Part shown: positions 5,600-50,426 of the stretch, piece after piece
How positions within the stretch are numbered: position 1 is the stretch's first letter
How the letters are laid out: each line of letters begins with the position of its first letter
Translations under genes and position numbers: made by a program
Notes under the pieces: model-generated
Told to the model about the DNA's origin: nothing
The model's input: only the letters and a program-made list of their open reading frames with translations
Databases searched by the model: none
NCBI RefSeq assembly: GCF_026210795.1
Contig: NC_089450.1
Location: forward strand, 2,356,001 to 2,420,000
Reading direction: 5' to 3'
Source of the DNA: Rhizophagus irregularis
Taxonomy: Eukaryota > Glomeromycota > Glomeromycetes > Glomerales > Glomeraceae
DNA: 64,000 bases

Positions 5600-6580
5600 A
5601 CACACTATAATCTCCACTTTGAACAAATGAAATCAACTTCATTTATTAATTGAAAGTTGTTCAGGCGGGTTAAAAGCACTTGAATATTAATTTTCATGAA
5701 TGTAGATGTAGTGCTTAGAGAAGATTGCATTTTTCTTGATGATATTAACTCTCTTTTCTGTTTTTTTTTTAATTTAGAGCGTAATATCTCCACTTTGGAC
5801 AAATGAAATCAACTTCATTTATTAATTGAAAGTTGTTCAGGCGGGTTGATTCTACTTGAATATTAATTTTCATGAATATAGGTGTAGTGCTTAGAGAAGA
5901 TTGCATTTTTCTTGATGATATTAACTCTCTTTTCTGTTTTTTTTAATTTAGAGCGTAATATCTCCACTTTGGACAAATGAAATCAACTTCATTTATTAAT
6001 TGAAAGTTGTTCAGGTGGGTTGATTCTGCTTGAATATTAATTTTCATGAATATAGGTGTAGTACTTAGAGAAGATTGCATTTTTCTTGATGATATCTCTT
6101 TTTTCTGTTTTTTTTTTAATTAGAGCGTAATATCTCCACTTTGGACAAATGAAATCAACTTCATTTATTAATTGAAAGTTGTTCAGGTGGGTTGATTCTG
6201 CTTGAATATTAATTTTCACGAACATAGGTGTAGTGCTTAGAGAAGATTGCATTTTTCTTGATGATATTAACTCTCTTTTCTGTTTTTTTTTAATTTAGAG
6301 CGTAATATCTCCACTTTGGACAAATGAAATCAACTTCATTTATTAATTGAAAGTTGTTCGGGTGGGTTGATTCTACTTGAATATTAATTTTCATGAATAT
6401 AGGTGTAGTGCTTAGAGAAGATTGCATTTTTCTTGATGATTAACTCTTTATCTTTTCTGTTTTTTTAATTTAGAGCGTAATATATCCACTTCGGACAAAT
6501 GAAATCAACTTTATTTATTAATTGAATGTTGTTCAGGTGGGTTGATTCTACTTGAATATTAATTTTTATAAGATTTCATT
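5600..6580 (+). repeat. Minisatellite array, about 5.6 copies of a 172-175-bp unit
   Basis: The landmark ATCTCCACTT (or a close variant) recurs at about 5610, 5785, 5960, 6132, 6307 and 6482, giving periods of 175, 175, 172, 175 and 175 bp. Units share GAAATCAACTTCATTTATT, TTGTTCAGG and AGAGAAGATTGCATTTTTC and differ mainly in T-run length and single substitutions; the last unit is truncated. The Met-Gln-Ser-Ser open frames on the minus strand simply follow the repeat. Confidence 0.92.
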
Positions 6581-32737: not shown

Positions 32738-34024
32738 TTGGGGTATCTAATATCAAGCTAACCACAAACATATTAGTAGCTGCATAATGAAAATCACTAT
32801 TCATCATGAAATTTCGAAATTTTTTTTACTAATAAATTACTGCTAAAAATTACTTTTGCGAAAAATTTTATTTCTCATGATCTGACAAGTTTTTATTATT
32901 TTTAACCTTATTGAATATAATTCTTCGAACGTGTCTTTATTTAATTAGAGAAGCAAATTTTAATAATTTAACTTCGTTAACAATCTGGATATATTTTTGT
33001 GTATTATTTAAACTTTAAAGTTTAAGCAAGCTTAAATAAACTTAATAATAAAAGCAATTTAACTTTCTCTTTTAAAAATTTAAAAATGGGTCGAAATAGA
33101 AAACGAAAAATACAATTAAAAATATGCGCCAAAGGAAAAACTTTCTAGGTTATTGTCACAAATCAAATTAACTAAGCAATTGAGTGATAACCTTGATAAC
33201 CTAGACAATAATGACTTTGCTACTATTGCCGAATAAATTGAGGGAATATATGAAGAAAATGAAACAAAACGGAATGAACTTATTACTAAAATTCAAAAAT
33301 TGCCCGCTAATCAAGTCTCCAGTGCATTTCATTTGTTTCAGACAATGATATACTCAAAAGGAGATCGAAAGGTGAAATTCTTTCACCACACCTTCAAATA
33401 AAAGCAGTAGAGTTTCTTAATTCGGGATTATATAAAAAGGAATCTTCAACGCAAGCAAGTGAGGATAAAATTAAAGAACTTGAAAAAGAAAATCTCCAAT
33501 TGAAAAAGAATTTATAAAATATCGAATTTACAGCATTGTAATCCACCAACAACAACTCGAAGGTTTAAATAATTGCTATGATATTAAAATACACCCGAAT
33601 ATGGGTACAGAACTTCAACAAGCACGAATCCAATTTTCTGGTATTAACAATAGAATTGAGAAAGTAACTCAAGACGAACTTCATCATATTCGGAAAGAAA
33701 TGAGAAATTCTAATAGAAGAGATAATTCTTTAGAAAGTTCATTTTCTTAGTTTGACGTAAAAAATAAATTTACAAATATTAAATATAACTAAAATTTGCT
33801 TCTCTAATTAAGTAAAAACACGTTCAAAGAATTATATTCGGTAAGGTTAAAAGTAACAAAAACTTGTCAGATCATGAGAAATAAAATTTTTCGCAAAAGT
33901 AATTTTTAGCAGTAATTTATTAGTAAAAAAAATTTCGAAATTTCATCGCGAAAAATCTTCACTAATAATTTTCATTATGCAACTACTAATATGTTTGTGG
34001 TTAGCTTGATATTAGATACCCCAA
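32738..34024. mobile_element. MULE-like element with about 225-bp terminal inverted repeats
   Basis: Arms at 32738-32962 and about 33790-34024 are highly similar inverted copies that start TTGGGGTATCTAAT. A 7-bp duplication CAGTACA flanks the element (32731-32737 and 34025-34031). Long arms with 7-11-bp duplications suggest the Mutator-like superfamily; the short duplication leaves doubt. The interior carries a broken gene (33086-33750) and no transposase. The element sits immediately beside a 310-bp MITE. Confidence 0.75.
33086..33750 (+). pseudogene. Broken coiled-coil protein gene carried inside the long-TIR element
   Basis: It begins MGRNRKRKIQLK and continues across frameshifts and stops as RLLSQIKLTKQLSDNLDNLD, EENETKRNELITKIQKLP, EILSPHLQIKAVEFLNSG and KIKELEKENLQLKK, ending QDELHHIRKEMRNSNRRDN with a stop at 33748. 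At least three frame changes and internal stops are needed. The composition (Lys/Glu/Leu heptad-like) suggests a coiled coil with a basic N-terminus. It has no transposase motifs, so it is passenger or accessory cargo. I do not recognise the family. Confidence 0.6.
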
Positions 34025-34031
34025 CAGTACA

Positions 34032-34807
34032 TGATTTTAAGCCGGATTGTGTCATACAGAATATTGTATATAATATATTTATCGAGATTTATTTATATTA
34101 TACTTTTTTAAATACTAATAGTTATTAGATGGGGAACAGAGTGGTCGAAGACCGATATTAATGCTAATAATACTGATTTTAGTATTGGATGTTTAATAAA
34201 AATATCAGTCATTAAATTCCTGCATATTGTTACGCAGCAAAATGTCACGCAGCAATCACATGATATAACTGGACCCATGATGCCGATCAATATAGAAGAT
34301 ATCGAATATGTTCGACATGTTCGATATGTTACGTATGTCCGATATGTTCTATATATTGGTATATATAGAACATATAGTATATATAGCATAAATAGTATAT
34401 ATAACATATATAGCATATATAGCATATGTACTAACGTAAATTCAATATATTAGATATTTTTTTATATAGTAAAAATTGTTATAAAAAGGCAGTGTAAATG
34501 CGCATTAGAAAAGTAGTTTTAGAACAGTCCTCATAAATATCATTAATAAAATTAATTAATAAAACTCATATACACTTTATTTTTCGTGTTATTTCTTATA
34601 CACTTTATTTTTTTTATTCATTGTTCATATTTGGTTAGTTTAATCCTTTTACTTGCGTCTGATCGTATAGGCTATTTTGGCTATACCATATTCGCATTTG
34701 ATCGGATTTATGTTAGATTTACATTGAATTAATTAAATTAGTATAAGATTTACGCCGATCCTGTTAATTTCCGACCCTACCAATCCTTCTGCTTACACTA
34801 AATATAC
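34032..34807. other. Low-complexity intergenic stretch
   Basis: Degenerate repeats at 34290-34430 explain the Tyr/Leu/Met-rich minus-strand frame. No gene is supported. Confidence 0.45.
34290..34430. repeat. Degenerate short tandem repeats (GATATGTTC and TATATAGCAT words)
   Basis: About five TTCGATATG-like words are followed by about eight ATATAGCAT/ACATATAGTAT words with a period near 10 bp. Confidence 0.75.
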
Positions 34808-35232
34808 GGGTCTGGTTCACATTACCAACAATCATTTACCGACAAAATAATAATTATTTTTAAGTTACAAAAAAAGCAAATTATATAAACTAAATTAAAA
34901 AAATTATTAAGAACAATTCTAAGTACAATATATTATGAAGCTGAAATAAATTTTTTAAAAAATAAAATTGATAAAATTAAATATTAAATTCAAGTTATTT
35001 TATTAGTATATATAAATATCATAGTATTTTACATTTTGTTTAATTTGTTATATATTAATCAATTTTTTATTTTATATATTATGGTAAATTCTTTTATATT
35101 AAATATGTATTTTAATTTTCATGACTGAAGTGGGTAGTGAAATAGTAATAAATACTGTAAGTGTTGATGGTAATATGAGTGTCGGTAAAATGATTGCCGG
35201 TAATATGATTGTCGGTAATGTGAACGGGTCCC
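34808..35232. mobile_element. hAT-like MITE, 425 bp, with 8-bp target duplication
   Basis: The ends are GGGTCTGGTTCACATTACC and the complement of GGGACCCGTTCACATTACC. A perfect 8-bp duplication AAATATAC flanks it (34800-34807 and 35233-35240), the hAT signature. ATTACCGACAATCAT-like words are repeated near the right end. No gene lies inside. Confidence 0.8.
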
Positions 35233-35420
35233 AAATATACCGCTTATTTTTAAGCACATAAGAACTGACCTATAACAATATTCCTAATCGACTATATAAT
35301 AATTGATAATAATATTCTAACGTTAAAATTTATACCGAGCTATGATACAGATTATATCAAGTATCTACTATGGGACCACATAATAGGACCCTATTACTAA
35401 GATTTTAATACTTTGTAAAT

Positions 35421-35965
35421 GGGATCACCCAAAAATCCTGAATCAAAATCCTGACAGTTACAGAACGCCGATGATCTAAAATCTTGACAGCCAAAATCCT
35501 GGCTGAGATTCGATCAGATTAATCAGATTAGTTAATGCAATTGTTTCTAATTTTAGAAGGTAAGGAATAGTTTAGTAATCTAGTAAGTAATATACAGTAC
35601 CATAATCCTTTTAACCAAGATAGAATTTTTTTCTTTTAATTTTAATTAATTATATTAATTTGCATTTATATTAAACAATTTACATTGGTATTAATAAAAT
35701 TTACAATAAATTAACCTGTTAAAAAAAAACGGATTTTGATTGTCAAGATTTTTAACTGTCGAAATTTGGGACTATCGGGATTTTATTTCAACGGGATTTG
35801 TTATAATAACATAAAAAAATCAATTATAAACTATTAAAAATTAGTACTTATTAATAACAATAATAATGAATTCTTATATATTATCTGGATTTGGGTTTGT
35901 CGGGATCTCGGTGTCGGGATTGTAGACTGTCGATTTTATGGTTGTCAGGATTTTGTGGCAAACCC
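35421..35965. mobile_element. Insertion in array unit 1 with imperfect inverted-repeat ends
   Basis: This block is absent from the other four units and replaces about 200 bp of their sequence. Its ends are imperfect inverted repeats (GGGATCACCCAAAAATCCTG versus the complement of GGGTTTGCCACAAAATCCTG), with several AATCCTGACAG-type words inside. No target duplication or gene is visible. Confidence 0.55.
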
Positions 35966-36747
35966 ATTTTAACAATTTTTAGAATATGTTTATTGTAACT
36001 TTGGTTCTCATATTCTAAACCATGTGTATGTTTTACCATTTTAGCAATTATAAAACAACATTTGTAACAACAAGAAAAGTCGATCAAATCATGGATCTTT
36101 CAACTTTCATGATAATATTCACTTGACACTTGAAACAATGTTCCGTTTTATAAATAGGTAACGAGTACTATTAGCTCTAAACGTCAGAGCCAGAGTTACA
36201 TAATGCCGGCTGGCATTATTATCTAAAAAAGGAAGGATCTACACACTAGTTCAACCTATTTATATCATGGGATCTGCGAAATAACAATTGTAATAAAAAA
36301 AAATAGTTAATGACAAATCATTGTTTTATATATATTACATTATTATTATATATATATACATTTTCTTTGTAAAAGAAAAGTAACACAAAATTTACATTCT
36401 TGACTAACTAAAAAAAAACTATTTATAATTTTTACTATTTTTCATATCATGTATTAAAATTACTACCCACTTAACAAAATCGGTTAAACCCATTCTGATT
36501 GTAATCCTAATTTAATAATAAGAATTGTAGTAATTTGGAACATCCTATTTAGGTAGATTTACGTCTTTGAAAACTTTTCTGAAATGGTAAATAGAAAAAA
36601 AAACATAAAATGGAGTGGAAGGTGGTCTATTTACTTAGTATTACTTTTGATTGGCAGTTAAAACATAATAATTGCAATTGTATCAAATAATAACAATTTA
36701 AACTCGTAAAATTTAGGGATATTCTAAGAAAAGAATATCAAGATATC

Positions 36748-36814
36748 CCGATATAATCGGATTAGATTTTTAGTATTATTCTTGATTTTCGTTTGTTTTG
36801 AATCATTATAAATA
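36748..36814 (+). promoter_or_regulatory. Promoter region of CaaX gene copy 1
   Basis: An inverted repeat CCGAT-ATA-ATCGG (36748-36760) lies about 46 bp upstream of a TATA-like TTATAAATA (36806-36814), which is 126 bp before the ATG. Both are kept in all five units at nearly constant spacing. Confidence 0.5.
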
Positions 36815-36939
36815 TGATTTCGATTTCGCTTTCAAATTTTCTATCAAATAAAAAAATCTCTCAAATAAAAAAAAATTACCTACTTAAACATATAAAAAAC
36901 TTCACAAAGTCAACTAATTTAAAAACAGACCGAATCAAA

Positions 36940-37038
36940 ATGAATCCAATCGCTAGCACTAAAACAGCTGTTATTGTCGTTTCTGCTGAAGTGACTGAAA
37001 AGCCGGCTCAACCTACCAACTCATGCTCTATCATGTAA
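36940..37038 (+). CDS. CaaX-box peptide precursor (pheromone-precursor-like), copy 1
   Basis: The product is 32 residues, MNPIASTKTAVIV followed by VSAEVTEKPAQPTNSCSIM. It ends in Cys-Ser-Ile-Met, a CaaX box; CSIM is the farnesylated terminus of animal prelamin A, so this exact motif is a known farnesyltransferase substrate. Short precursors with a hydrophilic body and a C-terminal CaaX box are the architecture of fungal a-factor-type pheromones. The start at MNP is chosen because all five copies share it; the in-frame upstream extension from 36814 exists only in this copy and is closed by stops in the others. An A-rich leader follows the TATA-like box, and a GNRA hairpin overlaps the stop. 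Function as a pheromone is inference; another small prenylated signalling peptide is possible. Confidence 0.72.
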   Translation: MNPIASTKTAVIVVSAEVTEKPAQPTNSCSIM

Positions 37039-37050
37039 ACGAAAGTTTAC
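37035..37050 (+). other. Stop-spanning GNRA hairpin, copy 1
   Basis: GTAAAC-GAAA-GTTTAC: a 6-bp stem with a GAAA loop beginning at the last base of the Met codon. Confidence 0.6.
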
Positions 37051-39467
37051 TTTGAAAAAGTTTTACTCTACACTTGTTCTTTATAACTTCCGACGGATAA
37101 CTGACGAACGGAATATTCCTCTTTTACTGGCCTGATGCTTATTATCTCTTAACGATCTACAAGAATGAATCAATATATTTTTCTTAATTTTAATTTATCT
37201 TATTATTTATACCAGTCCTAATTTTCTTTTTGAATTAAAGTATTTTCTTTAATATTTATATCACATTTTTCTTATATCTCAATTTTTGTATTTGTAACAC
37301 GTGATTTACTATTACTATATTTACACAGATCGTTTACCTAGTTGTAAATATAATTTATTTTATTTTAATAATAAAAATTTTGAATCGTAATTTGTTAATT
37401 TGTTACAAAATTTAAATATATGTATCGTTTTAAAATGTTTATATTAATGAATTTTCTATGAAATTAAATCTTAGATTTATAATTTACTATATATCATGAA
37501 AGAAAGACTGATTATTGGCTTTGAAAAAAAATGAAATGAAAATTGTAATATAAAATCTACTAATTAACTAATTGTAATAATGACAGACTGGATGCGTAAA
37601 AGAAAATTTTTCGTACAGGTAATATTTTATTCATATAAAAATCAAACATAAAAAAAAAGAAATTTTTAAAGCCTTTTTAGACATTTCTTTAAAAATTGTC
37701 GAAAGAAAATTTATTTTCAAAAACTAATGAGAAAATACTGGATTAAAGAAGAATTTTAAATTATGGTTGATAGATAAAATCTTCAAACAAAATAAAACTT
37801 TTTCACAAAAATTAAATGAACATAAATAATAATGAATTTCATATACCTCTTCATAATACCGCTCTTATTATTATAGTGATGCCGACTTAACTGACAGAAT
37901 TATAATTTTAAAAAGTAAAAAACCAACGTTGTTGATAAAAAATTTTAGAAAATCATGATCATATGTCTGAGTTTTTTTTAGAAAAATGAGCGTTTATCGG
38001 AGTTTTTTCAGAAAAATTTTTATAGGGTTTCATATCATGATAAAATTAATAACAAACAATTTAATTTTATTACAAAGAGACTTTTACTTAAAAATTTCTG
38101 TATTTTGTCATTAGAGGATTCGGATGTGCGGTGACTTTGACACCGTCAATTAATTGAATTGTTTAAATTGAAATGTATAATATATACAGTATATAATAAC
38201 GTATATAATAACGTATATAATTACTTTTATTATAATATTTTTTTAATTTTAATATTAGTATAAACTCGTAAAAGAAATATTTAATTTTATTTCATGAGTC
38301 AATACGCATCATACGCGTCACACGATACAGTAAATAGTGATAAGATTGATTACAAATAGCGGTTATCGTTAATACCGATTCACTTAGAAGGATAAAAAAA
38401 AAAATGGCAAAATTAAATTGTGTTATAATTGGTAATAATATACTAACTACTAAGATTTTAATACTTGTAAATGATCATTTTATTCATTTATTACATGACT
38501 TGTTTAATGATTTTGATAGACTGAATTATTCAGGTAAATTTGACGGTGGCAAAATTTGTTCAATGTGATGAATAGTCCAAAAATTTTTTTAGAAACTAGT
38601 ATTGTAATTCAGTTTGTTAATATTGTTTACAGTATAATTTATAATTACGTTAGACTAATACTCCTTTTTTCTTATTTATGATATTTTTAACAATTTCAGA
38701 ATGGAACATTAGTTCCCAAATTCTAAATTCTAAACCATGTGTACTATAATTTGACCATTTTAGTAATGTTAGAACAACATTTGCAACAACAAGAAAGGAC
38801 GATCTCATCATGAACACTTGATACAATATTCCGTTTTATAAATAGGTATATACAAGAGTACTATTAGCTCGCTTCTTCAGTGCCAGAGTTATATAATGCC
38901 GGCTGGTATTGTCCAAAAAAGGAAGGATCTACACGTTAGTTTAGATTCATGATAATGATAAATGATTACCATGGGATCTGCAAGAAACGATTATAATAAG
39001 TAATAATAGTATTTCACGTTAATTATTCTCATTGTTTTATATGTTTATTACATTATTATACATATATATTTTTTCTTTTTTAAAGAAAGTAACACAAAAT
39101 TTACACTCTTGACTAAAAAAACTTTTTATAACTTTTTTACTATTTTTTCATATCATGTATTAAAATTACCCACGGCGTGATCCTTAACAAAATCGGTTAA
39201 ATCCATTTCTGATTGTAATCCTAATTTAATAATAAGAATTGTTGTAATTTGGAATGATATCCTATTTAGGTAGATTTACATCTTTGAAAACTTTTCTGAA
39301 ATGGTAAATAGAAAAAAAAACCATAAAGTGGAATAGAAAGGGGTCTATTTACTTGGTATTACTTTTGATTGGCAGCTAAAAACATAATAATTGCAATTGC
39401 ATCAAATGATAACAATTTAAACTCGAAATATTTAGGGGATATTCTAAGAAAAGAATATCAAAATATT

Positions 39468-39535
39468 CCGATATAATCGGATTAGAATTTTTAGTATTAT
39501 TCTTGATTTTCGTTTGTTTCGAATCATTATAAATA
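39468..39535 (+). promoter_or_regulatory. Promoter region of CaaX gene copy 2
   Basis: CCGAT-ATA-ATCGG at 39468-39480 and TTATAAATA at 39527-39535, 141 bp before the ATG. Confidence 0.5.
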
Positions 39536-39675
39536 TGACTTCGATTTCGCTTTCAAATTTTCTATCAAATAAAAAATCTCTCAAATAAAAAAAATTACCT
39601 ATAAAAAAAATTACCTACTCAAACAAACAAAAAAAATCCACAAAGTCAAATAATTTAAAAACAGACCGAATCAAA

Positions 39676-39768
39676 ATGAATCCAATCACTAGCACAGCTG
39701 TTATTGTCGTTTCTGCTGAAGTAACTGAAAAACCGGCTCAACCTACCAACTCATGCTCTATCATGTAA
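39676..39768 (+). CDS. CaaX-box peptide precursor, copy 2
   Basis: The product is 30 residues: MNPITSTAVIV followed by the invariant VSAEVTEKPAQPTNSCSIM. Compared with copy 1 it lacks two residues (a 6-nt deletion, in frame), has Ala to Thr at position 5, and shows only silent changes in the last 19 codons (GTA for GTG, AAA for AAG). The upstream frame is closed by a TAA, which supports the MNP start. Subtype B together with copy 4. The role is as for copy 1: a likely farnesylated secreted or membrane-anchored peptide. Confidence 0.72.
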   Translation: MNPITSTAVIVVSAEVTEKPAQPTNSCSIM

Positions 39769-39780
39769 ACGAAAGTTTAC
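39765..39780 (+). other. Stop-spanning GNRA hairpin, copy 2
   Basis: GTAAAC-GAAA-GTTTAC, identical to copy 1. Confidence 0.6.
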
Positions 39781-42207
39781 TTTGAAAAAGTTTTACTCTA
39801 CAATTGTTCTTTTATTACTTCTGACGGATAACTGACGAACGGAATATTCCTCTTTTACTGGCCTGATGCTTATTATCTCTTAACGATCTACAAAAATGAA
39901 TCAGTATATTTTTCTTAATTTTAATTTATCTTATTATTTATATCAGTCCTAATTTTCTTTTTGAATTAAAGTATTTTCTTTAATATTTATATCACATTTT
40001 TCTTATATCCAATTTTTTATATTTGTAACACGTGATTTACAATTACTATATTTACACAGATCGTTTACCTAGTTGTAAATATAATTTATTTTATTTCAAT
40101 AATAAAAATTTTGAATCGTAATTTGTTAATTTGTTACAAAATTTAAATGTGTGTCGTTTTAAAATGTTTACATTAATGAATTTTCTATGAAATTAAATCT
40201 GGGATTTATAATTTACTATATATCATCATAAAAGAAAGATTGATTATTGGCTTTGAAAAAAAATGAATGAAAATTGTAATATAAAGTCTACTAACTAACT
40301 AATTGTAATAATAACAGACTGGATGCGTAAAAGAAAATTTTTCGTACAGGTAATATTTATAAAAAAAAAAAGAAATTTTTAAAGCCTTTTAACATTTCTT
40401 AAAAAATTGTCGAAAGAAAAATTTATTTTCAAAAATAATGAGAAAATACTGGATTAAAGTAGAATTTTAAATTATGGTTGTTAGATAAAATCTTCAAACA
40501 AAATAAAACTTTCACAAAAATCAAATGAACATAAATAATAATGAATTTCATATACCTCTTCATAATGATGCCAACTTAACTGACAGAATTATAATTTTAA
40601 AAAGTAAAAAACAGACGTTGTTGATAAAAAATTTTTTAGAGAAATCATGATCACATGTCTGAGTTTTTTTTAGAAAAAAGAGCGTTTATCGGAGTTTCTC
40701 AGAAAATTTTTTATGGGGTTTCATATGATAAATTTAATAACAAACAATTACAAAGAGATTTTTACTCTGTATTTTGTTATTATTCTATGACTAGTAGATG
40801 ATTCGGATGTGCGGTGACTTTGACACCGTCAGTTACTAATTGATTTGTTTAAATTGAAATGTATAATATATACAGTATATAATAACGTATATAATAGCGT
40901 ATATAATAACTTTTATTATAATATTTTTAATTATAATATTAATATAAACTCGTAAAAAAGAAATATTTGATTTTATTGCATGAATCATACGCATCATATA
41001 TGCGTCATGCGATACAGTAAATAGTGATAAGATTGATTACAAATACTAGCGGTTATCGTCCACTTAAAAAAAAATGGCAAAACTAAATTGTGTTATAATT
41101 GTTAATAACATCATACTAACGTTAAAATTTATACCGAGTTACAGATTATATCGGAATCTTACTACTAAGATTTTAATATTATGTAAATGATCATTTTATT
41201 CATTTTATTACTTGACTCGTTTAATGATTTTGATAGTAGATTGGATTCAGGTAAATTTGACGGTGGCAAAATTTGTTCAATGTGATGAATAATCCAAAAT
41301 TTTTTTTAGTAACTAGTACTGTAATTCAGTTCATTAATATTATTCACAGTAAAATTTATAATTACGTTAGACTAATACTCCTTTTTTCTTATTTACGATA
41401 TTTTTAACAATTTCAGAATATGTTTATTGGAACATACGTTCTCAAATTCTCAAATTCTAAACCATGTGAATAATTTTACCATTTTAGTAGTGTTAGAACA
41501 ACATTTGTAACGACAAAGAAAGGACGATCTCATCATGAACACTTGATACAATATTCCGTTTTATAAATAGGTATATACAAGAGTACTATTAGTTCGCCTC
41601 TTCAGGGCCAGAGTTGCTTGCATTGTTCAAAAAGGAAGGATCCACACACTAGTTTGGGTTCATTCAACCTATTTATGCAAATAACGATAAGTGATATCAT
41701 GGGATCTGCGAAATAACAATTGTAATAAGTAATAATAGTTAATGGCAAATCATTGTTTTATATATATATATTACATTATTATATACTGTATATATATACA
41801 TTTTCTTTGTAAATGAAAAGTAACACAAAATTTATATTCTTGACTAATTAAAAAACTATTTATAATTTTTTACTATTTTTCATATCATGTATTAAAATTA
41901 CCCACGTAGTGATCCTTAACAAAATCGGTTAAACCAATTCTGATTGTAATCCTAATTTAATAATAAGAATTGTTGTAATTTGGAATGACGCCCCATTTAG
42001 GTAGATTTACGTCTTTAAAAACTTTCCTGAAATGGTAAATAGAAAATAAAAACATAAATTGGAGTGGAAGGACTGGAAGGTGGTCTATTTACTTAGTATT
42101 ACTTTTGATTGGAAGCTAAAAACATAATAATCGCAATTGCATCAAATAATAACAATTTAAACTCGTAACATTTAGGGATTTTCTAAGAAAAAGAATATCA
42201 AGATATC

Positions 42208-42275
42208 CCGATATAATCAGATTAGAATTTCTAGTATTATTCTTGATTTTTGTTTGTCTCGAATTATTATAAATA
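42208..42275 (+). promoter_or_regulatory. Promoter region of CaaX gene copy 3
   Basis: CCGATATAATCAG at 42208-42220 (one base off the perfect inverted repeat) and TTATAAATA at 42267-42275, 131 bp before the ATG. Confidence 0.5.
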
Positions 42276-42405
42276 TGACTTCGATTTCTCTTTCAAATTT
42301 TCTATCAAATAAAAAAAAATCTCTCAAATAAAAAAAATTAACTACTCAAACAAACAAAAAAACTTCACAAAGTCAACTAATAATTTAAAAACAGACCGAA
42401 TCAAA

Positions 42406-42504
42406 ATGAATCCAATCGCTAGCACTAAAACAGCTGTTATTATCGTTTCTGCTGAAGTGACTGAAAAGCCGGCTCAACCTACCAACTCATGCTCTATCAT
42501 GTAA
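42406..42504 (+). CDS. CaaX-box peptide precursor, copy 3
   Basis: The product is 32 residues: MNPIASTKTAVII followed by VSAEVTEKPAQPTNSCSIM. It matches copy 1 except for Val to Ile at position 13, and shares its silent positions (GTG, AAG, CCG), which marks both as subtype A. The 62-residue frame that overlaps the stop (42489-42677) is a shadow. Same likely role as copy 1. Confidence 0.72.
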   Translation: MNPIASTKTAVIIVSAEVTEKPAQPTNSCSIM

Positions 42505-42516
42505 ACGCAAGTTTAC
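42501..42516 (+). other. Stop-spanning GNRA hairpin, copy 3
   Basis: GTAAAC-GCAA-GTTTAC: the loop changes from GAAA to GCAA and remains GNRA. Confidence 0.6.
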
Positions 42517-44943
42517 TTTGGAAAAATTTTACTCTACAATTGTTCTTTTATTACTTCCGACGGATAACTGACGGTCCTCTTTTACTGCCTGATGCTTATT
42601 ATCTCTTAACAATCTACAAAAATGAATCAATATATTTTCTTAATTTTAATTTATCTTATTATTTATATCAGTCCTAATTTTCTTTTTGAATTAAAGTATT
42701 TTCTTTAATATTTATATCACATTTTTCTTATATCACAATTTTTATATTTGTAACACGTGATTTACAATTACTATATTTACACAGATCGTTTACCTAGTTG
42801 TAAATATAATTCATTTTATTTTAATAATAAAAATTTTGATTCGTAAATTGTTAATTCGTTACAAAATTTAAATATGTGTATCGTTTTTAAAATGTTTATA
42901 TTAATGAATTTCTATGAAATTAAATGTTGGATTTATAATTTATATCATGAGAAAGACTGATTATTGGCGTTGAAAAAAAATGAAATGAAAATTGTAATAT
43001 TAAGTCTACTAACTAACTAATTGTAATAATAATAACAGACTGGATAGTACGCAAAAGAAAATTTTTCGTACAGGTAATATTTTATTCATACAAAAATCAA
43101 ACTGACAATAATTATCTATAAAAAAAAGAAATTTTTAAAGCCTTTTCGAAAGAAAAATTTATTTCAAAAATAATGAGAAAATACTGGATTAAAGTAGAAT
43201 TTTAAATTATGGTTGTTAGATAAAATCTTCAAACAAAATAAAACTTTTTCACAAAAATTAAATGAACATAAATAATAATGAATTTCATATACCTCTTCAT
43301 AAATACCACTATTGATGCCAACTTAATTGACAGAATTATAATTTTAAAAGTAAAAAACAGACGTTGTTGATAGAAAATTTTTTAGAAAAATCATGATCAT
43401 ATACTAATTATCTGAGTATTTTTTTTAGAAAAATGAGCGTTTTTCTCAGAAAATATTTTATGGGTTCATATGATAAATTTAATAACAAACAATTTAATTT
43501 TATTACATAGAGATTTTTACTTAAAAATTTCTGTATTTTGTTATTATTCTATAGCTAGTAAGAGGAATCGGATGTGCGGTGACTTTGACACCGTCAGTCA
43601 ATTGATTTATTTAAATGGAAATGCATAATATATAGTATATACAGTAAACAGTATAATAACGTACTATATAATAATGTATAATAACTTTTATTATTTAATG
43701 ATAATATTAATATAAACTCGTAAAAAAAGTACTTAATTTTATTGCATGAATCATACGCATCATATGCGTCATATCAAACGATACAGTAAATAGTGATAAG
43801 ATTGATTACAAATAGCGGTTATCGTTAATACCGATCCACTTAGAAGGACAAAAATAAAATGGCAAAATTAAATTGTGTTATAATTGATAATAATATACTA
43901 ACGTTAAAATTTATACCGAGCTACAGATTATATCTGAATCCTACTAAGATTTTAATACTTTGTAAATGATCATTTTATTCATTTTATTACTTGACTCGTC
44001 AGGTAAATTTGACGGTGGAAAATTTGTTCAATGTGATAAATAGTCAAAATATTTTTTTAGAAACTAGTATTGTAATTCAGTTCATTAATATTGTTTACAG
44101 TATAATTTATAATTACGTTAGACTAATACTACTCCTTTTTTCTTATTTATGATATTTTTAACAATTTCAGAATGGAACATTGGTTCTCAAATTCTAAATC
44201 CTAAACCATGTGTATAATTTGACCATTTTAGTAACATTTGTAACAACAAGAAAGGACGATCTCATCATGAACACTTGATACAATATTCCGTTTTATAAAT
44301 AGATATATAAGTATATACAAGTTATATACAAGAGTACTATTAGCTCGCCTCTTCAGGGCCAGAGTTATAATATAATGCCGGCTGGTATTGTCCAAAAAAG
44401 GAAGGATCTACACGTTAGTTTAGTTTCATGATAATGATAAATGATTATCATGGGATCTGCAAGAAACGATTATAATAAGTAATAATAGTATTTCACATTA
44501 ATTATTTTCATTGTTTTGTATGTGTATTACATTATTATACATATATGTTTTTTCTTTTTAAAAGAAAAGTAACACAAAATTTACACCTTTGACTAAAAAA
44601 ACTTTTTATAACTTTTTTACTATTTTTTCATATCATGCATTAACAGTACTAGTACCCACGGCGTGATCCTTAACGAAATCGGTTAAATTAATTTCTGATT
44701 GTAATCCTAATTTAATAATAAGAATTGTTGTAATTTGGAATGACATCCTATTTAGGTAAGTTTACGTCTTTGAAACCTTTCCTGAAATGGTAAATAAAAA
44801 ATAAAATTATAAATTGGGATGGAAGGTGGTGGTATTACTTTTGATTGACAACTAAAAACACAAGAATTGCAATTTCATCAAATAATAACAATTTAAACTC
44901 GAAACATTTAAGGATATTCTAAGAAAAAGAATATCAAGATATT

Positions 44944-45011
44944 CCGATATAATCGGATTAGAATTTCTAATATTATTCTTAATTTTCGTTTGTTTCGAAT
45001 TATTATAAATA
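44944..45011 (+). promoter_or_regulatory. Promoter region of CaaX gene copy 4
   Basis: CCGAT-ATA-ATCGG at 44944-44956 and TTATAAATA at 45003-45011, 126 bp before the ATG. Confidence 0.5.
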
Positions 45012-45136
45012 CGACTTCGATTTCGCTTTCAAATTTTCCATCAAATAAAAAATCTTTCAAATAAAAAAAAATTACCTACTCAAACAAAAAAAGAAACTCC
45101 ACAAAGTCAAATTATTTAAAAACATATCGAATCAAA

Positions 45137-45229
45137 ATGAACCCAATCACTAGCACAACTGTTATTGTCGTTTCTGCTGAAGTAACTGAAAAACCGGCTC
45201 AACCTACCAACTCATGCTCTATCATGTAA
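45137..45229 (+). CDS. CaaX-box peptide precursor, copy 4
   Basis: The product is 30 residues: MNPITSTTVIV followed by VSAEVTEKPAQPTNSCSIM. It has the same 6-nt deletion and silent codons as copy 2 (subtype B), plus Ala to Thr at position 8 and a silent change in the Pro3 region (AACCCA). All differences from other copies in the last 19 codons are synonymous. Confidence 0.72.
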   Translation: MNPITSTTVIVVSAEVTEKPAQPTNSCSIM

Positions 45230-45241
45230 ACGCAAGTTTAT
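45226..45241 (+). other. Stop-spanning GNRA hairpin, copy 4
   Basis: GTAAAC-GCAA-GTTTAT: the terminal C to T change leaves a G-U wobble in RNA, so the stem is kept. Confidence 0.55.
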
Positions 45242-47582
45242 TTTGGAAAAGTTTTACTCTACAATTGTTCTTTTATTACTTTCGACGGATAACTGACGAA
45301 CGGAAAATTCCTCTTTTACTGGCCTGATGCTTATTATCTCTTAACGATCTACAAAAATGAATCAATATATATATTTTTAATTTTAATTTATCTTATTATT
45401 TATATCAGTCCTAATTCTCTTTTTGAATTAAAGTATTTTTTTTAATTTTTGTATTTTCAATTTTTTATTTTTGTAACACGTGATTTGCATTTACTATATT
45501 TACACAAATCGTTTACCTAGTTGTAAATATATTTTGTTTTATTTTAATAATAAAAATTTTGATTCATAATTTAAATATGTGCATCGTTTTTAAAATGTTT
45601 ATATTAATGAATTTTCTATGAAATTAAATCTTGGATTCATGATTTATATCATGAAAGAAAGATTAATTATTGACTTTGAAAAATAAAATTATAAAATTTT
45701 TTTATTCTATTAATTAAGATGTTTCCATTAATAAAATGTTATAATCCATATTGCAATACTTAATGCGAGTGACTTCTTTAATTTAAGCTATAGTTTTCAT
45801 GAAAACACATACGAGCACCAGTGATAAAGCTCCTTGAAAAAAAAAGAAAATTGTAATATAAAGTCTAACTAATTGTAATAATAACAGACTGGATACATAA
45901 AAGAAAAATTTTCGTATGAAAATCAAACAATGATTGTATCTATAAAAAAAAATGAAAATTTTAAATCCTTTTTAAACATTTCTTTAAAATTGTCGAAAGA
46001 AAAATTTATTGTCAAAAAATGAGAAAATACTGGATTAAAGTAGAATTTTAAACTATGGTTGTTAGATAAAATCTTAACATTTTCTTTAAACAAAATAAAA
46101 CTTTTCACAAAAATTAAACGAGCATAATTAATTACACCTCTTATTATTTATAGTGATGGCGACTTAACTGAGAGAATTATAATTTTGAAAAGTAAAAAAA
46201 AAACAAACGTTGTTAAAAAAAATTTTTAGAAAAATGATCACAGCTTTTTTTTAAAAAAATGAGCGTTTATCGGAGTTTGGATTTCATATGATAAATTTAA
46301 TAATAAACAATTTAACTTTCTGTATTTTGTTATTATTCTATAACTAGAGGATTCTGATGTGACACCGTCAGTTACTTGATTTGTTTAAATTGAAATGTAT
46401 AATATATACAGTTTATAATTAACGTATATGATAATTATTTTTTTTTAATTATAATAATATTAATATCATAAAACTCAATAAATGTATTTAATTTGACAAG
46501 ATTGACTACAAATAGCGGTTAAAAATAATGGCAAAACTAAATTGTGTTATAATTGATAATATTATACTAACGTTAAAATTTATACCGAGCTACAGATTAT
46601 ATCAAATATTTTATGGGAATCCTATTACCAAGACTTTAGTACTTTGTAAATGATCATTTTATTCATTTTATTACTTGATGATTTTGATAGATTGAATTCA
46701 GATAAATTTGATGGCGGACATCTGTTCAATACGATGGGGGTGGGTAGTTCAGATTTTTTTTTTTGAGATCTACTGTAATTCGTTAATATTGTCTACGATA
46801 TAATTTATATTACGTCAGACTAATCCTCCTTTTTTCTTATTTAAAATTTTTTATGTTACATTTTAACAATTTTCAAATAAGTTTATTCGAACTTTGGTTC
46901 TCGTATTCTAAACCATGTGTATAATTTTACCATTTTAGAAATTTTAGAATACTTGACACTTGAAACAATATTCCGTTTAATAAATAGGTAACAAGAGTAT
47001 TTACTATTAGCTCTAAACGTCAGAGCCAGAGTTACATAATGCCGGCTGGCATTGTCTAAAAAAGGAAGGATCTACACATTAGTTTGGGGTTCATTCAACC
47101 TATTTATGCAAACAACGATAAATGATACTATCATGGGATCTACAAGACGATTGTAGTGTTTCACATTAATTATTTTGGTGGCAAATCATTGTTTTTAAAG
47201 AAAAGTAACACAAAATTACAATCCTGACTAACTAAAAAAACTTTTTATAACTTTTTTACTATTTTTTCACATCATGTATTAATAGTACCCTCGTGTGATC
47301 CTTAACAAAATCGGTTAAATTAATTACTGATTGTAATCCTAATTTAATAATAAGAATTGTTGTAATTTGGAATGACATCCTATTTGAGTAGGTTTACGAT
47401 TTTAAAAAATGCCTGAAATGGTAAATAAAAAAAATAAAAAACATAAATTGTGATGGAAAGTATGGTATTACTTTTGATTGGCAACTAAAAACACAATAAT
47501 TGCAATTTCATCAAATAATAACAATTTAAACTCGAAACATTTAAGGATATTCTAAGAAAAAGAAAAAGAATATCAAGATATT

Positions 47583-47650
47583 CCGATATAATCGGATTAG
47601 AACTTTTAGTATTATTCTTGATTTTCGTTTGTTTCGAATTATTATAAATA
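47583..47650 (+). promoter_or_regulatory. Promoter region of CaaX gene copy 5
   Basis: CCGAT-ATA-ATCGG at 47583-47595 and TTATAAATA at 47642-47650, 118 bp before the ATG. Confidence 0.5.
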
Positions 47651-47767
47651 TGATTTCGATTTCGCTTTCAAATTTTCTATCAAATAAAAAATCTCAAATA
47701 AAAAAAATTAATCAAATAAACAAAAAAAACTCCACAGTCTAATAATTGAAAAACAGAACAAATCAAA

Positions 47768-47866
47768 ATGAATCCAATCACTAGTACTAAACCAGCTGTT
47801 ATTGTCGTTTCTGCTGAAGTAACTGAAAAACCCGCTCAACCTACCAACTCATGCTCTATCATGTAA
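47768..47866 (+). CDS. CaaX-box peptide precursor, copy 5
   Basis: The product is 32 residues: MNPITSTKPAVIV followed by VSAEVTEKPAQPTNSCSIM. It keeps the two residues lost in copies 2 and 4 but has their silent codons (GTA, AAA), plus a private CCC proline codon and Thr to Pro at position 9. It therefore looks like an intermediate or a recombinant of the two subtypes. It is the last unit of the array. Confidence 0.72.
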   Translation: MNPITSTKPAVIVVSAEVTEKPAQPTNSCSIM

Positions 47867-47878
47867 ACGCAAGTTTAC
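47863..47878 (+). other. Stop-spanning GNRA hairpin, copy 5
   Basis: GTAAAC-GCAA-GTTTAC, as in copy 3. Confidence 0.6.
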
Positions 47879-48738
47879 TTTGAAAAAGTTTTACTCTACA
47901 ATTGTTCTTTTATTACTTCCGACGGATAACTGACGAACGGAATATTCCTCTTTTACTGGCCTGATGCTTATCTCTTAACGATCTACAAAAATGAATCAAT
48001 ATATATATTTTTTAATGTTAATTTATCTTATTTTATTTATATCAGTCCTAATTCTCTTTTTGAATTAAACTATTTTCTTTAATATTTGTATTTTCAATTT
48101 TTTATATTTGTAACACGTGATTTACATTTACTATATTTACACAAATCGTTTACCTAGTAAATATATTTAGTTTTATTTTAATAATAAAAATTTTTGAACC
48201 GTAATTTGTTAATAAAATTTAAATACTATATATATATATCGTTTCTAAAGTTTTTATATTAATGAATTTTCTATGAAATTATGAAATTAAATCTTGGATG
48301 GATTCATGATTTATGTCATGAAGAAAGATTGATTATTTATTGACTTTGAAAAAAAATGAAATGAAAATTGTAATCTAAAGCTTGACTAACTAATTGTAAT
48401 AGTACTGGATACGTAAAAGGAGAAATTTTCGTACAGGTAATATTTTATTCATAAAAAAATCAAACAATGATTGTATCTATCAAAGAAAAAAGATATTTCT
48501 TAAGCCCTTTTAAACATTTCTTTAAATATTCTTGAGAGAAAATTTTATTGTCAAAAAATAATGAGAAAATACTGGTTAGATAGAATTTTAAATTATGGTT
48601 GTTAGATAAGAATCTTACATTTTCTTCAAACAAAATAAAAATTTTCATAAAATTAAACGAACATAAATAATGAATTTCATATACTTCTTCATAAATATTA
48701 CACCTCTTGTTATTTATAGTAGTGATACCAACTTAACT

Positions 48739-49945
48739 AATGCCCATCAATCCGTTTTTTATATTCCATCTTATTTCCGTAAAAGGCTCATAATTTCAGA
48801 ATTAATAACCTTGTATCACGGAACTTATCGAATAATTTAAATTTCCGTGAATGGATATGCGAAAAGCTCATCTTTACGTAATAAAATTTTTTTATAAGGC
48901 GGTCGACTGTTTCGACTGATCATTTTAATGATTACAAATAAATTGTTGTGCCACAATTAAAAAAAATATCTTCTTAAAAAAAATTTTCATTTATAAAAAA
49001 AAAGTATTTTAATTTACTTTTTTTTAATAATTTGGTCTAATCCTTTATAAATTATTTTGTCTTTCTGATCCTGCTTTTATCTTAGCTCAATATGAACCCG
49101 TTAATTAGAGTTAAAATTTATTAGTTAAAAAAAATGCACGCAATTTCTTTTAAAAAATTCATTTCGTAGAATGAATTGATGGCCACAAAATTATCCGTCA
49201 AAAGTACTGTCATTGCTTTACGGATCCAAGTTCGGTGAAACGTTGATATTAATGTAATACTCGAAAATTAAAATCACTTCGAATTATTATATTATATATA
49301 GTACCCATGTATGCAAAATTACCATTACTATAGTAGTAAATTACCTTACTTGATATATTAATTATTCAGTTAGTCAATTACTATTATTTTTACCAAATCA
49401 TAAAAATTTGCCAATCTTTAATTTATTTGACCTTGAATGCGTTCAGAGTTAAAAGATTGAATAATGTTTAAAATGATTAATTATTTTTGCTTCAGAAGTT
49501 TGTTTTATATAGTAAGGAAAATAACAAAAATTAACTAGCAAACTGATAAAATAAATCGATTATATCGATTTCTGGAGTATAAATTAAGCTTTTGGCAGCC
49601 GTACTATAATTCTCTGAATTTGAAGTTTAATGATCACAAAATAATTTGTAAAAAAGATCGGCGTTTTTCTAACATGCTACTAATGTCACTAGGCGTGATT
49701 AGTGACGTTATATCTCGAGTTGCACCATGTTATCATGTTGCGTCGTTGACGTGACTAGACGTAAATTCATACGGTTTGACATATCAAAGTATAAATATTC
49801 TTTAACAAGTTCGAAATTATTGTTATTTTTATATACTATTAATATCCTTATTGCGCTTACTACTCTTTAATTAACAATGCTATTTATCTCCTTTGATTTA
49901 CTTTTCTAATCTATTTAAAAACATTATTAATTGGATCCATATTTA
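48739..49945. other. Intergenic stretch right of the array
   Basis: No gene is supported. There are short repeats around AATGTCACTAGGCGTGATTA (49681-49715) and CATGTTATCATGTTGCGTCG. Confidence 0.4.
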
Positions 49946-50426
49946 TGTTGTGCCTCAGATCGATTCAGCTGACAGCTGACGCACCTCAGATTAAAATCGT
50001 CACCTGACGCACCTCATTTGAATCGTATAAATTTAGTCTACTATAAATAAACTTTTTTTCTATTAATTAAATTGCCTTCATGTTATAAGTAAACCTATTT
50101 GTCACAATAATTTACACATATTCTGAAATTTTTATACAATTTTAATTCCTATTAAATATACAATGCGAATATTATTTGGAAAATTTGCATTATAAACACA
50201 TTTTTAAATGAAGATTTCAAAAGCAAGCATGAATCCAATTGATCTAAAATTTTAGGATTGAATATTTGAAAATACAGCAAATAAGTTTTATTAATAATCA
50301 AATGTACATTAGATTAGAAATTTTAATACTTAATTATAATCAATTTTTTATTGTAAAGTGAGGCGCTTCAGGTGACGATTTTAATCTGGGGTGCGTCAGC
50401 TGTCAGCTGAGGCATGAGGCACAACA
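49946..50426. mobile_element. MITE-like element with GC-richer 65-bp ends, 481 bp
   Basis: Inverted repeats begin TGTTGTGCCTCA and include CAGCTGACAGCTGACGCACC and GATTAAAATCGTCACCTGA. TA lies at both flanks (49944-49945, 50427-50428). The repeat arms are much richer in G and C than the AT-rich interior, which has no gene. Confidence 0.75.

Follow-up and report, generated by a model that had tools for sequence, protein, structure and literature searches.

Which role could five tandem genes for a peptide of 30 or 32 residues play in an arbuscular mycorrhizal (AM) fungus? The genes lie in a 64,000-nt window of Rhizophagus irregularis (the window being the whole stretch of DNA that was analyzed; coordinates given without a contig are positions within it), and all five open reading frames (ORFs) terminate in a CaaX box, CSIM, followed by the stop codon. 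A first-pass annotation of this DNA had read them as multiple copies of a gene for a CaaX peptide, kept by purifying selection and with a candidate function in signaling. The observation is confirmed and proves larger than first noted, with at least 36 intact CSIM members in the genome. The reading is supported at the level of the genes and still unproven as to signaling, which makes it partly supported as a whole.

Five CaaX micropeptide genes in tandem

The array occupies positions 35944 to 48738 of the + strand (outer edges approximate) and consists of five ∼2.7-kb units with one micropeptide gene each. Copies 1 (MNPIASTKTAVIVVSAEVTEKPAQPTNSCSIM, 36940 to 37038), 3 (MNPIASTKTAVIIVSAEVTEKPAQPTNSCSIM, 42406 to 42504), and 5 (MNPITSTKPAVIVVSAEVTEKPAQPTNSCSIM, 47768 to 47866) encode 32 amino acids (aa), and copies 2 (MNPITSTAVIVVSAEVTEKPAQPTNSCSIM, 39676 to 39768) and 4 (MNPITSTTVIVVSAEVTEKPAQPTNSCSIM, 45137 to 45229) encode 30 aa, all on the + strand. 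Successive copies are spaced 2730, 2736, 2725, and 2637 nt apart. The five units were described correctly at the outset as spanning 35300 to 48738, with a left edge that proves loose because leftward of ∼35.95 kb the first unit resembles the others only in patches, including one 83-nt match (35271 to 35353).

The C-terminal 19 residues, VSAEVTEKPAQPTNSCSIM, are the same in 5/5 array copies. As the first-pass annotation had stated, variation within the last 19 codons is exclusively synonymous (3 of 57 nt, no gapped columns) and the flanks are variable. In the same five-copy alignment, 6 of 33 ungapped columns vary in the first part of the coding sequence (CDS), 57 of 292 vary in the upstream interval from −300 to −1 (with 38 further gapped columns), and 15 of 136 and 35 of 211 vary downstream at +1 to +150 and +151 to +400, respectively. 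With ∼24% synonymous sites, we calculate a chance of ∼1% for three synonymous and zero nonsynonymous variable sites. Taken alone, such variation among five close copies is thin evidence of selection; the case for purifying selection is strong because the whole family, beyond the array, supports it.

A genome-wide family under protein-level constraint

The assembly searched has 32 contigs and 146,748,485 bases, and all family results come from this one genome. A tblastn search with one peptide returned 38 matches, the matched stretches being free of internal stops; 33 of the 38 loci combine a start codon (ATG) with an undamaged CSIM terminus, whereas 5 are broken or startless. Two further queries added three loci, one intact on contig C10 and two broken on C20 and C18. 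The pattern ATGAA-N(61-91)-CSIM-stop had 42 hits, against 0 for a reversed-pattern control: 36 in-frame family members, 2 frameshifted members, and 4 that we ascribe to chance, each being out of frame or interrupted by an early stop. The in-frame members comprise the 33 found by tblastn, the copy on C10, and two further genes that form a pair on C4, with translation checked. The family thus totals at least 43 loci, at least 36 intact (27 to 34 aa) and at least 7 broken (L027, L028, L034, L036, L038, L042, and L043), the counts being lower bounds because only the best candidates were scored and the pattern is blind to other CaaX ends. The original count of five genes holds within the array and not genome-wide.

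Intact genes occur on 12 contigs (C1, C2, C3, C4, C5, C10, C11, C18, C20, C22, C23, and C26), and 11 of them cluster at C26:2963-2988 kb. The CSIM terminus is present in 36/36 intact copies, including the C4 pair, for which it holds by construction since that pair was located by the CSIM pattern alone. Change of the last residue does occur in broken copies without an intact start: L028 ends in CSII and L036 in CSKM. L042 (C20) and L043 (C18) are decayed members in which the frame is lost ahead of the CaaX box. The C4 genes (L059; 5551673 to 5551756 on the − strand and 5553211 to 5553294 on the + strand) form a diverging pair of the shortest members, at 27 aa, with the sequence MNPKNADVITKP[IV]VIIPINPTNQCSIM, in which the SExTExP stretch is absent. 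Contig C11 carries an intact divergent member (L037, 2479602 to 2479691) and a broken divergent one (L028, 2359767 to 2359856).

In the alignment of the 36 intact members, the start Met, two prolines, and C-S-I-M are the columns that never vary. Substitutions were counted by parsimony on a tree built from the flanks alone, with site counts that ignore transition bias. Over all columns there were 100.3 synonymous and 142.7 nonsynonymous changes, giving a ratio of nonsynonymous to synonymous rates (dN/dS, or omega) of ∼0.45. This ratio falls toward the C terminus, from ∼0.63 in the columns ahead of the last 18 (49 synonymous, 96 nonsynonymous) to ∼0.28 in the last 18 (51.3 and 46.7) and ∼0.13 in the last 9, which are 8 codons in most copies (25.3 and 10.7). 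The Cys codon itself has undergone 8 synonymous and 0 nonsynonymous changes.

The comparison on which we rely, few as its sites are, is a codon model (GY+F1X4) fitted to the 36 copies with the flank-derived topology fixed, which takes transition bias into account and yielded an omega of 0.314 (kappa, 3.7; log likelihood, −1164.18). Neutrality is rejected, as fixing omega at 1 lowered the log likelihood to −1193.68 under the most favorable of six kappa values. With 33 copies and a free tree, a GY fit gave an omega of 0.27 to 0.28 and raised a warning of over-parameterization. The coding sequences of ten chosen representatives (44 pairs) are on average 67.2% identical, versus 50.2% for shuffled letters, and four flank stretches lie near the shuffled level (55.8 versus 54.6%, 62.5 versus 60.8%, 53.2 versus 52.7%, and 55.0 versus 56.9%). 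Deep members of the family therefore stay alike in coding sequence, unlike the sampled flanks; the genes are real and under protein-level constraint. With CSIM kept in the intact members and omega at ∼0.3 overall, and thus not near 1, the first-pass annotation stands within this genome on two points where it had exposed itself to refutation, namely, loss of the CaaX box or the frame in copies and dN/dS.

When 31 distinct members (from the 33 then known) were compared with Pfam, with E values as high as 10 admitted, two weak, single, unrelated hits came up. Very short peptides rarely match curated family profiles. A family profile found no meaningful relative in the PDB (best E, 0.36). Prokaryote and viral contig collections contained no family relatives and, given what they hold, are silent on fungi.

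Promoter box, gene form, and shared flanks

The TATA box TATAAATA lies within 300 nt upstream of the start codon in 36/36 intact copies; in 35 of these it sits at −113 to −173, and in the remaining copy at −255. In the array, it stands on the + strand at 36807 to 36814 (−133) for copy 1, 39528 to 39535 (−148) for copy 2, 42268 to 42275 (−138) for copy 3, 45004 to 45011 (−133) for copy 4, and 47643 to 47650 (−125) for copy 5. Only 1 of the 7 broken copies (L042) has it (Fisher p, 1.1e-6, with copies treated as independent), the near-match TATAAATT in broken copy L038 being left out of the count. As background, TATAAATA occurs in 1.2% of 68-nt + strand stretches of the window outside the array. 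These counts overstate the sample because recent duplicates are not independent; the point is carried by the deep members (L018, L031, L033, L037, L041, and the L059 pair), which agree on the box.

Each ORF could instead be the final coding exon of some longer gene, or an accidental ORF within a conserved noncoding element, and in 15/36 copies the frame indeed continues without a stop for 17 to 46 codons ahead of the ATG. Against this stand an in-frame stop 2 to 9 codons upstream in 21/36, an A at −3 in 36/36, AG directly ahead of the ATG in 0/36, the narrow placement of TATAAATA, and the codon-level selection described above. A search for structured RNA found no Rfam match at gathering thresholds within 34000 to 50000. 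We consider both versions highly improbable and reject the last-exon version on the strength of the upstream stops, the missing AG, and the box position. Together with the A at −3, these same features fit compact, apparently single-exon genes, for which we infer a 5′ leader some 100 nt long.

How the copies spread bears on whether the gene is merely a passenger, copied along with a repeat that is mobile or duplicates in segments and having no selected role in the host. In eight dispersed copies on C1, C2, C4, C20, and C23, the common DNA reaches past the gene. Among 15 loci compared, a block of about −0.6 to +0.3 kb is common to 12 (those eight plus L009, L013, L014, and L016), and in several it extends to about −1.45 to +0.6 kb. 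The C3 copy has just the gene neighborhood in common with a few others. The shared blocks, and the fact that 7/43 copies are broken, are what a passenger would predict. An omega well under 1 is not, nor is the sharing of coding sequence rather than sampled flanks among deep members, nor the presence of TATAAATA in every intact copy versus one broken copy. At the block edges inspected by eye, which are ragged, no inverted repeats or target-site duplications were seen, and a transposon with clean ends was not found. We regard a selectively idle passenger as improbable, although the shared block itself may be mobile.

Elsewhere in the window there is a separate tandem array at 5610 to 6566 (175-nt unit, 5.5 copies, 94% matches). 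Of 12 stop-to-stop frames with 110 aa or more, 8 were scanned against Pfam and gave no match; the other 4 are low-complexity or overlapping frames within 1864 to 2441 and 34111 to 34449.

Receptor, processing enzymes, and the case for a pheromone

The same genome contains a Ste3-type receptor and CaaX-processing enzymes. We found a single STE3-family gene (C13:4766183-4768039; two open frames), which matches PF02076 with a best E of 1.1e-35; its first exon had no relative in the PDB at E up to 1. Prenyltransferase beta family matches lie in three places, on C5, C30, and C13. The top PDB matches of the C5 fragment are a dual farnesyl/geranylgeranyl enzyme and a farnesyltransferase beta subunit, and the C30 match is nearest geranylgeranyltransferase I. 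A Ste24 gene is present on C13 (4750317 to 4751923), a weak Rce1-like match on C26 (E, 3.1e-4), and ICMT on C5, with four weaker matches elsewhere. Farnesyltransferase (beta subunit), CaaX protease, and ICMT thus occur in one genome with the family. A STE2 search returned no match and no control match either, so absence is not shown. STE3 and STE6 orthologues are reported in AM fungi in the excerpted text of a survey (PMC3834313), and 8 full ABC-B genes are listed for R. irregularis in part of another study (PMC4692070).

Two of these genes, Ste24 and Ste3, are ∼14 kb apart on C13 (L048 to L050), with a FAR1-like frame just under the Pfam cutoff between them. The farnesyltransferase beta and ICMT genes are ∼28 kb apart, at C5:5505615-5507083 and C5:5535298-5535573 (L046 and L047). 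With so few genes looked up, two pairs this close seem to be more than chance.

We think it probable that the family is a multicopy set of precursors of the a-factor/M-factor kind, which would be farnesylated, exported, and read by Ste3. The short ORF, the kept CaaX box, the strongest constraint at the C terminus, the high copy number, and a Ste3 receptor that has no known ligand all point this way. Under this model, the genes would be transcribed from the TATA promoter, and the cysteine of CSIM, which we take to be a farnesyltransferase signal, would be farnesylated. Rce1 or Ste24 would then remove the last three residues, and ICMT would methylate the cysteine. Cleavage on the N-terminal side, possibly close to the conserved E-K/N-P, would leave a peptide of ∼8 to 12 residues, e.g., KPGNPTNSC(farnesyl)-OMe. 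Predicted C-terminal forms include KPAQPTNSC, KPGNPTNSC, KPDGNPTNSC, NPVQPKGVC, HPLNVPPSTPC, and INPTNQC. Release would proceed through an ABC-B exporter of the Ste6 type, and a Ste3-type receptor, whether on a different hypha or on the one that released the peptide, would sense it and guide mating or hyphal fusion.

The a-factor of Saccharomyces cerevisiae and the M-factor of Schizosaccharomyces pombe are a-type pheromone precursors of ascomycetes. The R. irregularis genes resemble the familiar features of these systems in their short single ORF, their CaaX end, the several genes with a near-identical C-terminal core, and their coexistence with a Ste3-type receptor and with enzymes for CaaX processing. 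They differ in having no significant Pfam match, a CSIM end, and at least 36 intact copies, and in belonging to the Glomeromycotina. Some basidiomycete species likewise carry many pheromone genes per genome, and the lipopeptide precursors of basidiomycetes share with this family their size, their CaaX box, and the ease with which they are overlooked in annotation. Unlike the members of basidiomycete pheromone/receptor loci, the R. irregularis genes found here are not linked to the Ste3 gene. In Cryptococcus depauperatus, a 37-aa precursor with a CAAX motif was added to the annotation by hand, according to passages of PMC9296135.

Several observations weigh against a pheromone. No family member was found on C13, the contig of the Ste3 gene, and no family-like CaaX ORF in C13:4746001-4772000 around it; nor was one found on C12, the contig of two Homeobox_KN matches. 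Basidiomycete pheromone/receptor loci differ in this. Linkage to the putative MAT locus is conceivable: the HD2 mating-type gene of this strain is assigned to chromosome 11 in excerpts of PMC11414155, and one intact member is on C11, yet the Homeobox_KN matches are on C12, and the two numberings may not correspond. The broken fraction of the family and the lack of a related Pfam hit point the same way, as does a co-inoculation study whose excerpted text reports no upregulation of mating-pheromone genes (PMC7490403), although whether this family was annotated there cannot be told. Lastly, the N-terminal part retains the pattern KPxVIVxSE and shows weak constraint (p, 0.007), more than might be expected of a sequence that serves only as a leader.

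This last point keeps alive the main rival, an intracellular prenylated micropeptide of 27 to 34 residues that is anchored in membranes by its farnesylated CSIM and there modulates a GTPase, some enzyme, or the machinery of prenylation, with neither export nor receptor. Such a peptide would account for the constraint on the N-terminal part (the omega of ∼0.63 being the parsimony value) and for the lack of a member on the Ste3 contig, and it dispenses with export and receptor binding, which are conjectural for the family. Constraint peaks, however, in the last 9 columns, the place of a mature lipopeptide, and in our judgment many near-identical copies and a ligandless Ste3 fit a pheromone better. 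We therefore treat the intracellular peptide as a possible but unlikely explanation and prefer the a-factor-type one.

For AM fungi, the 2013 survey found the receptor, the exporter, and the kinase cascade but no peptide pheromone gene related to a-factor or alpha-factor, and it asked for new methods (PMC3834313). The words “pheromone” and “mating” are absent from the main text of the R. irregularis DAOM197198 assembly paper (PMC10234402). None of the literature matches listed, from a search whose scope excluded most subscription journals and all preprints, described precursors of this kind for AM fungi. In the related early-diverging Mucoromycotina, the sexual signal is likewise a pheromone, trisporic acid, which is not a peptide, unlike the products proposed here, and mating pheromone recognition genes of the Dikarya type are lacking, according to excerpts of PMC5705715.

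AM fungal mating is a long-standing open question in a lineage that is supposedly asexual, and this family offers a concrete ligand candidate whose peptides can be synthesized and applied to hyphae or to yeast bearing the fungal Ste3. That AM fungi possess a working lipopeptide pheromone system outside the Dikarya, with one Ste3 and a repertoire of at least 36 genes, is in our view an evenly balanced proposition. If it is true, lipopeptide pheromones would extend beyond the Dikarya and farnesylated peptide signaling would predate the origin of that group, and partner recognition, hyphal fusion, or mating in this supposedly asexual lineage would become directly testable.

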